Shown here piece after piece: positions 26,404-31,008 of a DNA stretch of 40,107 bases. The stretch lies in contig DAIDDL010000038.1 of the NCBI GenBank assembly GCA_027309085.1, positions 1 to 40,107 on the forward strand, given 5' to 3'. Below the pieces are notes generated by a model that was not told the origin of the DNA, did no database searches, and saw only the letters and a list, made by a program, of their open reading frames with translations. The position numbers and the translations under genes are program-made. Source of the DNA: Sulfobacillus sp. (GTDB taxonomy: Bacteria; Bacillota; Sulfobacillia; Sulfobacillales; Sulfobacillaceae). How positions within the stretch are numbered: the stretch's first letter is position 1; the number at the start of each line of letters is the position of its first letter.

Positions 26404-27603
26404 CTAGCGCACGGGAACGGCAATGTTTTGATTGACTGTCCAGATCAGTTGAACCGACACCCCGCGGTTGGTCCAGTGGACAATCCGCTGCTCCCCCACA
26501 CGGGTTCCTCCATGCACAGCTGCATGCATGCGGTGCGTAACCGCCGCCAGCGCCTGCTCGAGTGCTTGCTTGCGAGACAGGGTCTGATGACGTCTTTGTA
26601 AATCATTATATACGATTTTGACCTCCTTTACCGGGAGGTTGACAGCCCGCCAGCGGACCTGGCGGGCAAATTTCCGCGCGCGGTAGTACCGGAAGGGAAC
26701 AGCGCCATATCCCTTCAGGAGCACCGGGGGCTCCGCGGCGAATTGCACATAAACCTGCTCGAAAGCCCGCCCAGTCGGCTGCAGAGTCCAGAAGCTGTAC
26801 GGTTGCGAGACGGTGTCCTGATAGCGGACATTGGCGTAGACTTCACCTTCTGCCGGAGTTTTCACGGCATCGGTAATCGGCTTGGCCGCCCCCGGCGGCT
26901 GAACGGGCAGGGGCGCGCTCACGGCGCCGGAGATCAGTGTCTGCCCCTTGCGCACCTGTTCCCCGGCCATCACCTCAGGATCTCCCATAAATACCAGCAC
27001 CGATGTCACCGTACCGTTGTGGGACGCCACCAATCTGCGCGGCAGCGCATCGGGGGACGGGTTGACGAGCGGTATCACATGGATGGTCACCAGCATGCCG
27101 TGCACGGACAGCCCAATCCAGGCGTACTGGGGGAGGGCCCTTTGCATACTCTGGCGCTCCGCATTCAAATTCATGCGCGACCTGGCCATGCCGATGTGCA
27201 CCCCCGCTTTGGCCGCTGCCTGAATGATCTGCGCCCGCGCCGTCGGGCTCACCTGCGTCCCCGGCGCATCCACCACCCAGATCCGGCTGGTCACAAACAC
27301 AATCAGCGCCAGAGCCGTCACGGCTCCCACCCCGAGGAATGGGCGGCGGCGCATCTCCCGCACCTTGAAGGGCCACCCCCCACGGCGCCCGAACCGGACC
27401 CTGCTGTGCTGCCCCCGCACGGCATGGCGCAGCGCGGGCACTCCCCTCAAGCTCAGGGTGAATGCGTATCCCCCGGGAGTTTTCCGGATCCTCCAGAGCC
27501 TCAGCCCGCCCAGCGCCAGCCGGCTGATGGTCCCTTCCGGCGTCCCGCCGCTCACCGTGACTTCGATCCATCCGAACAGCATGCGGTAGAGGAAGTCGAT
27601 CAC
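26404..27603 (-). CDS. yqfD: Sporulation protein YqfD
   Basis: A 399-residue member of the YqfD family, expressed in the mother cell during sporulation of Bacillus and required for normal spores; its biochemical role is unknown. A single membrane helix (FLGVGAVTALALIVFVTSRIWVVD, about residues 89-112) follows a basic N-terminal region. The extracytoplasmic part contains a POTRA-like beginning (AAAKAGVHIGMARSRMNLNAERQSMQRALPQYAWIGLSVHGMLVTIHVIP). GTG start overlaps the yqfC stop (GTGA). Good evidence that the host forms endospores. Confidence 0.93.
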   Translation of the reverse strand: MIDFLYRMLFGWIEVTVSGGTPEGTISRLALGGLRLWRIRKTPGGYAFTLSLRGVPALRHAVRGQHSRVRFGRRGGWPFKVREMRRRPFLGVGAVTALALIVFVTSRIWVVDAPGTQVSPTARAQIIQAAAKAGVHIGMARSRMNLNAERQSMQRALPQYAWIGLSVHGMLVTIHVIPLVNPSPDALPRRLVASHNGTVTSVLVFMGDPEVMAGEQVRKGQTLISGAVSAPLPVQPPGAAKPITDAVKTPAEGEVYANVRYQDTVSQPYSFWTLQPTGRAFEQVYVQFAAEPPVLLKGYGAVPFRYYRARKFARQVRWRAVNLPVKEVKIVYNDLQRRHQTLSRKQALEQALAAVTHRMHAAVHGGTRVGEQRIVHWTNRGVSVQLIWTVNQNIAVPVR

Positions 27604-27881
27604 CGTGGGCCCTCCTGGAACACGAGGGAGTGGACCTGGCCCGTCACTAGCAATTCCCCGCGATCAATCCACCCAATCACCATGTCTTCCCCCTGCACTA
27701 TCAGGCGGCCATCAGCCAGACGCAAGATGACCTGGTCTGGCGCATATTTCTCGAGACCGCGGTGATTTTCCACCCGGAACTGCAGGTGACCGACCACCTC
27801 AATGCGGGAGACATTGACCAAGACTTCAGGGGGGACTTCCAGCATCTGGGCTATCCGCGTCATGGCGCGCCCCTTTTTCAT
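27600..27881 (-). CDS. yqfC: Sporulation protein YqfC
   Basis: A 93-residue YabP/YqfC family protein (RIAQMLEVPPEVLVNVSRIEVVGHLQFRVENHRGLEKY, then QVILRLADGRLIVQGEDMVIG). These proteins form sheet-rich layers or assemblies in sporulation. AAGGAGGAG precedes the ATG. It is the first gene of the yqfC-yqfD-phoH-pgpH-ybeY run and is divergent from the radical SAM gene, with 131 nt between them. No clear sporulation-sigma promoter could be assigned. Confidence 0.92.
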   Translation of the reverse strand: MKKGRAMTRIAQMLEVPPEVLVNVSRIEVVGHLQFRVENHRGLEKYAPDQVILRLADGRLIVQGEDMVIGWIDRGELLVTGQVHSLVFQEGPR

Positions 27882-28012
27882 ACGGTCTCCTCCTTGTCCC
27901 TTCTATAGTTCATGCTATGCCCGGATGCATTCCGCCATGAAAGAAATGGGGCGCCGAGTTTGCAGGAACCGCATGGGATGATCGCGTATATAGGGATGTG
28001 GAGGATTTTACC

Positions 28013-28864
28013 ATGACGAATGCACCGCTGCGTTACCGCGCCGCACTGCTTCAGACCCGGCCACGGCCCCTGGAGCATCTCAAAGTGCTGCGCGTCAATA
28101 CCACCAGGAACTGCTGGATGCAGTGCCGTTTTTGTGATTTCAGCCGCTATGCCCCGCTCTCGGGGCCGCGCCCGGTGCCACCCGCCGTCGGCCGCGCCGC
28201 GCTGAAGAGTGAGCTCGGCCGCGGTAATCGCTACGATCTTATCAAGATACGGGGCGGTTTGACCTTTTGGGAGCCGTGGAGCTACTTTCTGCAGTTGGTG
28301 CGGGTGCTCGCGGAAGGCAGTTCCGCCGCGGTTCAGGCATTTTCGGCAGTGGAGCTTATGCATTTCCACCGGGTCGAGAAAAAGCCGCTGCGTGAAATGC
28401 TCGAGGAATTGCGCTGGGCTGGCGCCACCAGCCTGGGCCCTGGGGGCGGAGAACTTCTAGTGGATTCCTTGCGCGAAGAGCTGGCGGTTCACCGCATCCG
28501 TTCTCAGGAATGGGTCACGGTGCAGCGTTTGGCTATGGAGGCAGGGCTGCAGTCACGGGCCATGATGATGGTCTTCCGGGGCATCACCCGCGATCTGGTG
28601 CAGGAGCACCTGCTGGCGCTGGGCCCGCTCCGGGATTTGTCCGTCATTGAAATAAAGCCGCTCCGCCCGCAGGGCACCCATATGGAAAACGCTCAGCCCC
28701 CGCACCTTCTGGAAATGCTGGCTGTGGTTCAGGCGATTCAGGATCTCTGGCCGCAGGTGCAGATTGCGGTAAGCGCTGACAGCGTGTCCCCCGACGCCCT
28801 CTCTATTTTACACCAGCACGGGGTCAGCATGGCCTACTTTAATGCAGAGGAGATTGGCCCTTGA
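28013..28864 (+). CDS. Radical SAM enzyme resembling MqnC/MqnE (CofH-like)
   Basis: A 283-residue radical SAM protein. The cluster motif is C34-W-M-Q-C38-R-F-C41 (CX3CX2C) followed by DFSRY. Further family-like elements are IKIRGGLTFWEPWSYF, HFHRVEKKPLREMLEELRWAGATSLGPGGGELL, SQEWVTVQRLAMEAGLQSRAMMMVF and EHLLALGPLRDL. These match the aminofutalosine synthase and dehypoxanthine futalosine cyclase group (GL...P...Y, E, PGGGAE, W, MM). It is about 70-90 residues shorter than those enzymes and lacks their C-terminal FIPL-type part. ATG 28013 is preferred (GGAGGAT 6 nt upstream). The next gene starts at the TTGA stop overlap, so they work as a pair. The reaction is unknown; a menaquinone-pathway role is possible but not shown. 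Confidence 0.8.
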   Translation: MTNAPLRYRAALLQTRPRPLEHLKVLRVNTTRNCWMQCRFCDFSRYAPLSGPRPVPPAVGRAALKSELGRGNRYDLIKIRGGLTFWEPWSYFLQLVRVLAEGSSAAVQAFSAVELMHFHRVEKKPLREMLEELRWAGATSLGPGGGELLVDSLREELAVHRIRSQEWVTVQRLAMEAGLQSRAMMMVFRGITRDLVQEHLLALGPLRDLSVIEIKPLRPQGTHMENAQPPHLLEMLAVVQAIQDLWPQVQIAVSADSVSPDALSILHQHGVSMAYFNAEEIGP

Positions 28865-29535
28865 CGCACCAGCCCCTGTCATGGATCCCGGTCTTGGACC
28901 TGAGACAAGAGTCCCTGACCTCTTTTGCGCTGCGCGAGGCAGCCGTGTTTTACCGGGCACATCAAGGCCGCGGGCATCTCCTACTGGGGGAGCCTCTGCC
29001 GCCTGGCATTTCCTATGCGTCATGGTCTTGCGCAAGGCCCCTCCCGGGGCAGACATGGCATTCCCCTGTTCGAAGCTGGGCGGGCCTGCCTGTGGCCGCT
29101 TCCTTGGAAATAGCGGGGGACCATGCTCCAGAACCGGCACGGGACTGCGATCTCCCCTCCCTCCTGACTCAAGATGCGGCATGCCGCCTCACCCTTTACC
29201 GCATCCCCGGCACGGAGGCTGACGCTGTGATCCAGGCAGTCAGCCAAATCCGGGAGGATCATCCCCGGGCCGCACTCTGGCTCGACCTGCCTTCAATGGG
29301 ATGGGACGCCGCGGCGTATCTGCTTGCGGTCATCCCGGCCCTGCAGCTCATGAATGTCCCTGACCGGGAACTGTCCCACCTGCTGGATCTCGCCGAAATA
29401 CTGGAACGTCCTGTGCAGCTGCATGATTTTGGAGGGGCAGCCCCTCTCCCCGTGCTGCCCCTGCCGGAGTACCCTCCCCAGATGGACAACTCTTGGGATA
29501 TGTCCTCCCCTCCGGTCTACCCCGGCTACCTCTAA
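28861..29535 (+). CDS. Unknown protein coupled to the radical SAM enzyme
   Basis: A 224-residue soluble protein I do not recognise. It begins at TTG 28861, overlapping the upstream stop (TTGA). It is rich in Trp, Pro and Leu, has three scattered cysteines between about residues 55 and 110 (SCARPLPG, ARDCDLP, DAACRLTL), an acidic helical middle (EADAVIQAVSQIREDHPRA), and a Pro/Tyr-rich tail ending PPVYPGYL. No signal peptide or membrane helix. Tight coupling suggests a partner or substrate-handling subunit of the radical SAM enzyme. Its stop codon overlaps that of the convergent lipoprotein gene (CTAA), and a 12-bp hairpin follows. Confidence 0.65.
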   Translation: MTHQPLSWIPVLDLRQESLTSFALREAAVFYRAHQGRGHLLLGEPLPPGISYASWSCARPLPGQTWHSPVRSWAGLPVAASLEIAGDHAPEPARDCDLPSLLTQDAACRLTLYRIPGTEADAVIQAVSQIREDHPRAALWLDLPSMGWDAAAYLLAVIPALQLMNVPDRELSHLLDLAEILERPVQLHDFGGAAPLPVLPLPEYPPQMDNSWDMSSPPVYPGYL

Positions 29536-30527
29536 GACGGCCAAGGCACCACCTCCCGGGGAAAGGCCCCGGGAGGTGCCTGGACGGTGAAAGATTCGCC
29601 GAAGCGGTCCCGGGCCGCGTTGAACCAGTAGCCCTGGCTGGGACCGTCCACAATCAGCACCCACCCATTCCCCGTCCCGTCGGATGTGATAGTAGCCTTC
29701 AGGGGACGCGGCCAAGACTGCAGCCCCTGCCAGTTCCACTGTCCGCGCTGCAGGGGAATCAGCCCTTTCACTGTGATCCCGTACGGCGGGCTTGAAGGCA
29801 CGACCGCAATCACGGCGTGCCACACGCTGGAATAGGTGCTCTGGCGCACCGTTTGGGGGCCACGGGCAGGCATTTGCGCCATCCCAAATCCCCTCAGGCC
29901 GTGAGTGACTGGAAGGTATCCCCACCCCTTCCCAAAGGCTAGCGTGCCTTGGGGCACACCGTCAACCACCCACGTCCGCCGGTTCTGGCCAGACAGCAGT
30001 GTCACCGTGGCGTGGTGCGGGCTGGCGCTCAGCACAGCTACCGACCCCGGGGGCCCGGGCACCAAGGTTGTGATGGCGAGAGGGGTCTCGGCGCGCAAGC
30101 GCAGTCTCCCCGCGTCTTCGTAAATCCGGACACGGTGGCTGTGAATCCCTTCGGCTGCCAGCCAGAGATGTCCCCACAGATAGGCCAGGGAGAGGACGGC
30201 TGTGCCGCTCGGGGCGTGGAGGACCACGCGGGGACGGGACAGATTCCTGATCCGCACGACCTCATGTCCTGTCGTCACCCACAGGTCCGGGCCGTCCGAC
30301 GTCATAATCTGGGCCTGCGCCACCAGCCCCAGAGGCCCCAAGTTCACCATAGATCCCTGCGGATTTCCCTGTGCCGTGAAACGCCCCACCAAAAGGTCCT
30401 CCTGACCGGAGGCGCCGCGGCGGGCAAAGGCGACGGCGAGCCCGGCAGGGCCAGCAGACGACACTGGCCCGCACCCTGTGGCCAGGAGGGCCGCGGACAA
30501 CAAAAAGGCCCTCTTGGACAGATGCAT
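29532..30527 (-). CDS. Putative lipoprotein, beta-propeller-like
   Basis: A 331-residue exported protein of unknown function. The N-terminus is a lipoprotein-type signal peptide (LSKRAFLLSAALLATGC; Cys19 would be lipidated, with Ala rather than the usual Leu at -3). The rest is strand-rich with repeated hydrophobic-Gly-Trp patterns (DLWVTTGHEVVRIRN, LAYLWGHLWLAAEGIHSHRVRIYED, GSVAVLSASPHHATVTLLSG), compatible with a beta-propeller. ATG 30527 follows AAAGG; a longer frame to 30611 would overlap yqeY. It sits last in the rpsU-yqeY operon, an unusual place for a cell-surface protein. Confidence 0.7.
   Translation of the reverse strand: MHLSKRAFLLSAALLATGCGPVSSAGPAGLAVAFARRGASGQEDLLVGRFTAQGNPQGSMVNLGPLGLVAQAQIMTSDGPDLWVTTGHEVVRIRNLSRPRVVLHAPSGTAVLSLAYLWGHLWLAAEGIHSHRVRIYEDAGRLRLRAETPLAITTLVPGPPGSVAVLSASPHHATVTLLSGQNRRTWVVDGVPQGTLAFGKGWGYLPVTHGLRGFGMAQMPARGPQTVRQSTYSSVWHAVIAVVPSSPPYGITVKGLIPLQRGQWNWQGLQSWPRPLKATITSDGTGNGWVLIVDGPSQGYWFNAARDRFGESFTVQAPPGAFPREVVPWPS
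29550..29578. terminator. Hairpin at the convergent end of the radical SAM pair and the lipoprotein gene
   Basis: Perfect 12-bp arms (29550-29561 and 29567-29578) around a 5-nt loop. It lies 14 nt after the plus-strand stop and within the last codons of the lipoprotein gene. No T tract on either strand, so this is a likely but weak terminator for the plus-strand pair. Confidence 0.5.
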
Positions 30528-30558
30528 CCAAAAGGACCTTTCCCCGACCCTGGCCAAC

Positions 30559-31008
30559 CTAGGAATGAAGCTGGGCTTTAACAAGCTCTGCCACATGCCG
30601 GCCATCGGCACGGCCCCGGATCACTGGGTTGATGATAGCCATCACCTTGCCCATATCTTTGGGACCTTGAGCTCCCGTTTCCCGGATAGCGCCCATAACC
30701 AGACCGACAATTTCGTCTTCGGGGAGGGGAGCCGGAAGATAGGTGCTGAGAACTCCCATCTCTTTCTCATTTTGCTCTACTAAATCCTTCCGGCCCGCCC
30801 GCTGAAATTCCTCGTTGGCCTCTCTGCGTTCCTTAATTTCCTTCACGATGACCTGCATGATTCCATCATCATCCAAAGTGATCCGCTCATTGCGAGTCTC
30901 CTGGGACAGTATGCCTGCTTTGACGGCACGAATCACCGACAGCCGGGTGCCATCTTTTGCCCGCATCGCTGCCTTAAGATCATCAGTGAGCCGTTCTCGG
31001 AGAGTCAA
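30559..31008 (-). CDS. yqeY: GatB/YqeY domain protein
   Basis: A 149-residue member of the YqeY family, homologous to the tRNA-binding tail of the GatB amidotransferase subunit. Motifs: LTDDLKAAMRAKDGTRLSVIRAVKAGI, KEIKERREANEEFQRAGRKDL, EKEMGVLSTYLPAPLPEDEI, GPKDMGKVMAIINPVIRGRADGRHVAELVK. Starts with TTG 31008 after AAGGGGG. Follows rpsU by 25 nt, the order kept in many Firmicutes. Exact role unproven. Confidence 0.95.
   Translation of the reverse strand: MTLRERLTDDLKAAMRAKDGTRLSVIRAVKAGILSQETRNERITLDDDGIMQVIVKEIKERREANEEFQRAGRKDLVEQNEKEMGVLSTYLPAPLPEDEIVGLVMGAIRETGAQGPKDMGKVMAIINPVIRGRADGRHVAELVKAQLHS

Follow-up and report, generated by a model that had tools for sequence, protein, structure and literature searches.

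Two adjacent genes of Sulfobacillus sp. run on the plus strand through a conserved cluster whose other members all lie on the minus strand, and the question they raise is what the pair makes and whether its two products act together. The window analysed here is the whole stretch of 40,107 nucleotides (GenBank assembly GCA_027309085.1, contig DAIDDL010000038.1). A first-pass annotation of this DNA, made from the letters alone, had described a short radical SAM enzyme resembling MqnC and MqnE, coupled to an unrecognised partner, and had suggested a new radical SAM modification or cofactor pathway. We consider the pair a candidate for such a pathway, because the enzyme appears to be of the MqnC/MqnE kind, its partner is obligate and unrecognised, and the genomes that carry both have no futalosine pathway.

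The locus

The features of the locus and of its relatives are collected in Table 1. ORF positions and synteny bear out the placement of a plus-strand pair between yqfC and yqeY; the neighbouring minus-strand genes belong to a cluster of the dnaJ-prmA-rsmE-yqeY-yqfC-yqfD-phoH-pgpH-ybeY type. The earlier description of the pair as inserted against the grain is correct as geometry, and the insertion is old, since a relative of the pair is found at the same place in a genome of a sister family (locus L148, below). The stop codon of the enzyme gene (TGA, 28862-28864) shares bases with the TTG start of the partner gene (28861-28863), which agrees with the TTGA coupling first noticed, and an AGGAG sits 8 bases 5' of this start. 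The enzyme ORF is real, but the start first assigned to it (27998, for a product of 288 aa) probably does not hold: because the GTG at 27998 overlaps the GGAGG Shine-Dalgarno sequence, ATG 28013 is the more probable start, giving a protein of 283 aa. A consensus search of positions 27882..28012 found no sigma-70-like promoter. The partner, earlier called Trp/Pro-rich, contains 12.1% proline and 3.1% tryptophan. The adjoining orf359 has a lipobox (LLATGC), and its position beside yqeY is conserved in the Sulfobacillaceae-type family and also in loci L148, L169 and L178.

Table 1. Features of the locus in the window, and related loci in other genomes of the order
Feature	Position	Strand	Remarks
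Short radical SAM enzyme, 283 aa	28013..28864	+	CxxxCxxC at C34/C38/C41; predicted MqnC/MqnE-like barrel
Partner protein, 224 aa	28861..29535	+	Predicted reduced TIM-barrel-like fold; without known domain
Shine-Dalgarno GGAGG of the enzyme gene	28000..28004	+	8 bases ahead of ATG 28013; from sequence
TTGA start/stop overlap	28861..28864	+	Translational coupling
Divergent intergenic region, yqfC to cassette	27882..28012	none	
yqfC (YabP family)	27600..27881	-	Family-wide left border of the locus; synteny
orf359, lipoprotein-like	29532..30611	-	No match in Pfam; borders the locus on the right in the genus of the source genome; synteny
yqeY	30559..31008	-	Family-wide right border of the locus; synteny
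Cassette pair in sister family, genome G035	L148:2723-4212		GTGA overlap, same locus
Lone Cys-less tandem rhodanese-like genes, family f2	L149:2826-3431; L169, L170, L173, L176, L178, L179		

Distribution and conservation of the pair

Co-occurrence of the two proteins had been named as a check, and profile searches with each returned an identical set of 30 out of 34 Sulfobacillaceae-type genomes. The enzyme is present there in single copy, and neither gene occurs without the other among the 34. Of 398 genomes sampled phylum-wide, 3 carry the partner, and all three belong to this family. Loci whose flanks share a contig all read yqfC(-), enzyme(+), partner(+), orf359 and/or yqeY(-). The 4-base overlap (ATGA, GTGA or TTGA) is kept in 26 of 29 family loci; in genus g7 (locus L050) about 355 bases separate the two genes. 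Two of the four family genomes that lack the cassette are 61-63% complete, with contigs ending beside yqfC, and the other two represent one genus, g9. One g9 genome has a LysR-type regulator at the usual place of the cassette (L144:3678-4589).

Both genes are under purifying selection. Closely related sequences give dN/dS values of about 0.07-0.16 in the enzyme gene; in the partner gene the range is 0.15-0.20, with the exception of one very close pair (0.45). Conservation of the pair is far beyond chance, given its shared position in 30 of the 34 genomes and these low dN/dS values. The pair is confined to Sulfobacillus and its closest kin, and is inseparable. The cassette gave zero matches in PADLOC and PHROGs that would assign it to defence or to phage, it was not found on plasmids in the plasmid search, and none of the papers searched describes a radical SAM pair in Sulfobacillus. 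Two sets of more distant matches were set aside: a partner match in genome G039 (20.8 bits over only 71 residues) was taken as chance, and enzyme-scan matches in Chthonomonadales/Armatimonadetes (L085-L087) are full-length MqnC/MqnE proteins rather than members of the short family.

The short radical SAM enzyme

In the radical SAM superfamily a cluster together with SAM gives the 5'-deoxyadenosyl radical, and members of the MqnC/MqnE/CofH group are known to take part in making the precursors of menaquinone and F420. The three cluster cysteines C34-C38-C41, spaced CxxxCxxC as in the superfamily motif, are invariant in all 30 family proteins. The enzyme scores 25 bits against PF04055, a little under the Pfam cut-off of 29.5, and its best NCBIfam matches are MqnC (TIGR03699; 93.8 bits, cut-off 428.1) and MqnE (TIGR03700; 85.8 bits, cut-off 434.55), followed by CofH (63 bits, cut-off 374). 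Relative to MqnC it lacks about 30 N-terminal and about 40 C-terminal residues, so that its earlier description as MqnC/MqnE-like and truncated holds for both ends. The AlphaFold model (pLDDT 93) is a complete barrel with all eight strands, and its best structural match is MqnE (6xi9; VIA Z 26.8 over 275 residues, rmsd 2.9), with ThiH at Z 19.6. Judged by its motifs, the enzyme is a radical SAM protein of the MqnC/MqnE kind, from a common stock with the futalosine enzymes.

It has nevertheless gone its own way. A tree that also holds 31 MqnC and 19 MqnE proteins places the short family outside both, in one clade (100/100) whose branch exceeds 3 changes per site, and the 31 MqnC rows form a separate clade (100/100). 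The motifs of the SAM side are retained, namely the GG after strand 2, FSxxE (E114) and GGxE (GG.E147). The futalosine substrate motifs differ or are deleted: GHxE, the Q/D of RELQDE, FIP, LDN and the C-terminal GADD/EE-AAG region. In their stead the short family has conserved residues of its own, K78, E122, R161, E213 and D261, with R161 and D261 newly invariant. These losses and gains would tell only that the substrate differs.

The first-pass annotation had proposed a search for mqnA/B/D or menaquinone genes elsewhere in the genome. Profile searches of the family genomes found no MqnC above the cut-off and no MqnA/MqnD (PF02621), and MenB scores above its cut-off in most of them. Menaquinone pathways and the quinones DMK-6, MK-6 and MK-7 have been published for Sulfobacillus (PMC4378227, PMC8489842). 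The source genome has in addition a second MenB-like copy (G000:C159:9033-9536; 246.8 bits) with an internal TAG stop, apparently a decayed duplicate. Since the genomes have menB and lack mqnA/D, the cassette is not read as futalosine chemistry, and a role in that pathway was rejected. The enzyme thus falls outside true MqnC and MqnE and has no futalosine set around it, the opposite of the finding that was to count against its novelty. As far as its residues tell, the enzyme is unable to do the futalosine job, and the cassette therefore probably makes another, so far undescribed product.

The partner protein

The 29 members of the partner family gave zero domain matches in Pfam, NCBIfam, PHROGs and PADLOC, and a sequence search of the PDB returned no match; the partner thus stays outside the known domains of these libraries, as was first supposed. 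Its model (pLDDT 85) can be read from the strand order as a reduced alpha/beta barrel without helices 2 and 3. The best VIA match of the model is MqnE (Z 11.3 over 200 residues), followed by biotin synthase (10.5), ThiH (10.2), HisF (10.1) and many TIM barrels at 9-10, so that the radical SAM barrels do not stand out clearly from unrelated TIM barrels. Foldseek alone gave nothing at E 0.001 or better, with MqnE present in its list, and profile comparison detected no similarity of the partner to the enzyme family, to MqnE or to MqnC. On the strength of the model 'TIM-barrel-like' is a fair label; a radical SAM barrel without cluster is a possible identity, for which the profiles give no support.

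It had been suggested that the partner supplies the C-terminal part that the enzyme lacks. This was rejected: the enzyme model already has its eight strands, and the partner model forms a barrel-like protein of its own, which aligns along the MqnE barrel (residues 60-382) and not along the MqnE tail.

Positions P10, R114, G147 and R183 are conserved in all partner sequences, and H39, S54, R109 and D189 in nearly all. This pattern suggests a working binding site. No column has a conserved cysteine (at most 8 of 29 sequences per column). ThiG uses an invariant lysine; the invariant and nearly invariant columns of the partner include no lysine, and hence no counterpart of the Schiff-base lysine of ThiG.

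A third gene and variants in sister families

In 18 of the 30 cassette genomes a tandem rhodanese-like gene follows 3' of the partner; it is missing at the locus in the other 12, the genus of the source genome among them, and is absent from g4, g7 and g10. Neither active-site loop of this protein has a cysteine (17 aligned proteins), which is not the pattern of an active rhodanese. In the examined genomes of family f2 of the order the rhodanese-like gene stands alone between yqfC and yqeY, on the opposite strand. Relatives elsewhere at the class level have a cysteine in the second domain (L171, L172, L174, L175, L177, L180).

The sister-family genome at L148 has the pair in another state. Its partner is matched with an E value of 3.6e-42 by a profile that includes it and of 9e-15 by one that does not. 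The gene upstream of it encodes a protein weakly homologous to the enzyme (16.5 bits, against 6.2 for the best of 1000 shuffles), and CxxxCxxC was not found in any frame. Radical function has apparently been lost in this lineage, which is represented by one genome. Because the pair persists there without cluster cysteines, radical chemistry is not the sole selected trait in that lineage. With f2 keeping the rhodanese-like gene alone and L148 keeping the pair without cluster cysteines, the locus appears to be old within the order, its parts having been lost in different combinations; for the sister family this evidence is one genome.

What the pair may do

The reading that we prefer, with a probability of roughly 60%, is that the two genes of the cassette together specify one heteromeric radical SAM enzyme, restricted to the Sulfobacillus lineage. 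The product of the larger gene would be the catalytic barrel, binding a [4Fe-4S] cluster and SAM and yielding the 5'-deoxyadenosyl radical. That of the smaller gene would be a dedicated second barrel subunit, co-translated with the enzyme. It would most likely cover the barrel mouth left open in the shortened enzyme, and would also bind the substrate or accept a labile product in the manner of ThiG with ThiH; the substrate would be a small molecule other than a futalosine. Both folds are those of predicted models, and the physical complex, the radical chemistry, the hand-over and the small-molecule substrate are parts that we infer. Co-translation falls short of proof of a complex. The gap in g7, the L148 pair without cluster cysteines, the near-equal match of the partner model to MqnE and HisF (Z 11.3 and 10.1) and the profile comparisons that show no relation count against this reading.

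More speculatively, the two products might form a two-barrel radical SAM enzyme serving a cofactor or natural-product pathway peculiar to Sulfobacillus; one barrel would be catalytic and the other cluster-less, and the two may share their ancestry. We hold this as a tentative extension; if it is true, the L148 pair would be a natural case of conversion from a radical to a non-radical function.

The alternative that survives best, tentative to the same degree, is that the two proteins are separate enzymes, the partner catalysing the step that follows in a short pathway, being co-transcribed with the first and forming no stable complex with it. Its own conserved polar residues, several of them near strand ends (R114, D142, D189), look like an active site rather than a decayed one, and the spacing in g7 leaves the two genes uncoupled by overlap; against this, 26 of 29 loci retain the overlap, and within the family neither gene is seen apart from the other. 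Somewhat less probable is a heterodimer of catalytic enzyme and pseudoenzyme of one ancestry, with the partner a diverged copy of a radical SAM barrel that has no cluster. The presence of MqnE, biotin synthase and ThiH among the top structural matches, of MqnE in the plain Foldseek list and of a cysteine-free enzyme homologue beside the partner at L148 would fit this view, but HisF and other unrelated TIM barrels fall within about 1 Z unit, and the partner profile resembles neither the enzyme family nor MqnE or MqnC. We think it unlikely that the locus is a sulfur-related module, in which the Cys-less tandem rhodanese would be the common denominator and the pair would add a sulfur-containing group to a product. 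The hosts are sulfur oxidisers (PMC4378227), and the rhodanese-like gene accompanies the pair in 18 genomes and stands alone in f2; however, the catalytic cysteine is missing from both of its domains, and 12 of 30 cassette genomes, including those of the source genus, do without it. A last view, in which the enzyme would be a genuine if divergent MqnC or MqnE for menaquinone and the partner its missing C-terminal part, would agree with the best family and structural matches of the enzyme and with its lack of both MqnC termini, but it is already refuted on pathway grounds (no MqnA/D, MenB present) and is made very improbable by the low score, the separate clade on its long branch, the lost substrate motifs and the eight strands of the model.

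The short family is a distinct branch of the radical SAM group, with a dedicated partner outside the libraries searched, single-copy and nearly universal in an acidophilic, metal-leaching family; identifying what it makes might bring to light a new cofactor or membrane component. The locus occurs naturally as the pair, as the pair followed by a dead rhodanese, as the dead rhodanese by itself and as the pair with the cluster lost, and this series offers a way to the role of each part.

Comparison with known systems

The cassette enzyme has in common with MqnC and MqnE (TIGR03699, TIGR03700; 6xi9) the CxxxCxxC motif, the barrel fold, FSxxE and GGxE. It differs in being shorter at both ends, far under the cut-offs and in a clade of its own, in having lost the substrate motifs, and in that MqnA/D are absent from the cassette genomes. 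The F0 synthase CofH/CofG likewise has two barrel proteins and belongs to the same radical SAM subgroup, to judge from the CofH match of 63 bits. In CofGH, however, there is a cluster in both subunits, whereas the cassette partner has no conserved cysteine, and the CofH score is far under 374. The third gene of 18 relatives resembles rhodanese proteins (PF00581) in its tandem rhodanese-like form, but lacks the catalytic cysteine in both domains and is absent at the locus of the source genome. With ThiH-ThiG the differences are that ThiH is not the closest match of the enzyme (Z 19.6, against 26.8 for MqnE), that the partner is without the invariant lysine of ThiG, and that genes and context differ. 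The likeness lies in the arrangement: ThiH is a radical SAM barrel enzyme in complex with ThiG, which receives its labile product (PMC9046217), and the cassette similarly joins a radical SAM barrel enzyme to a separate partner protein, for which we propose a comparable complex.
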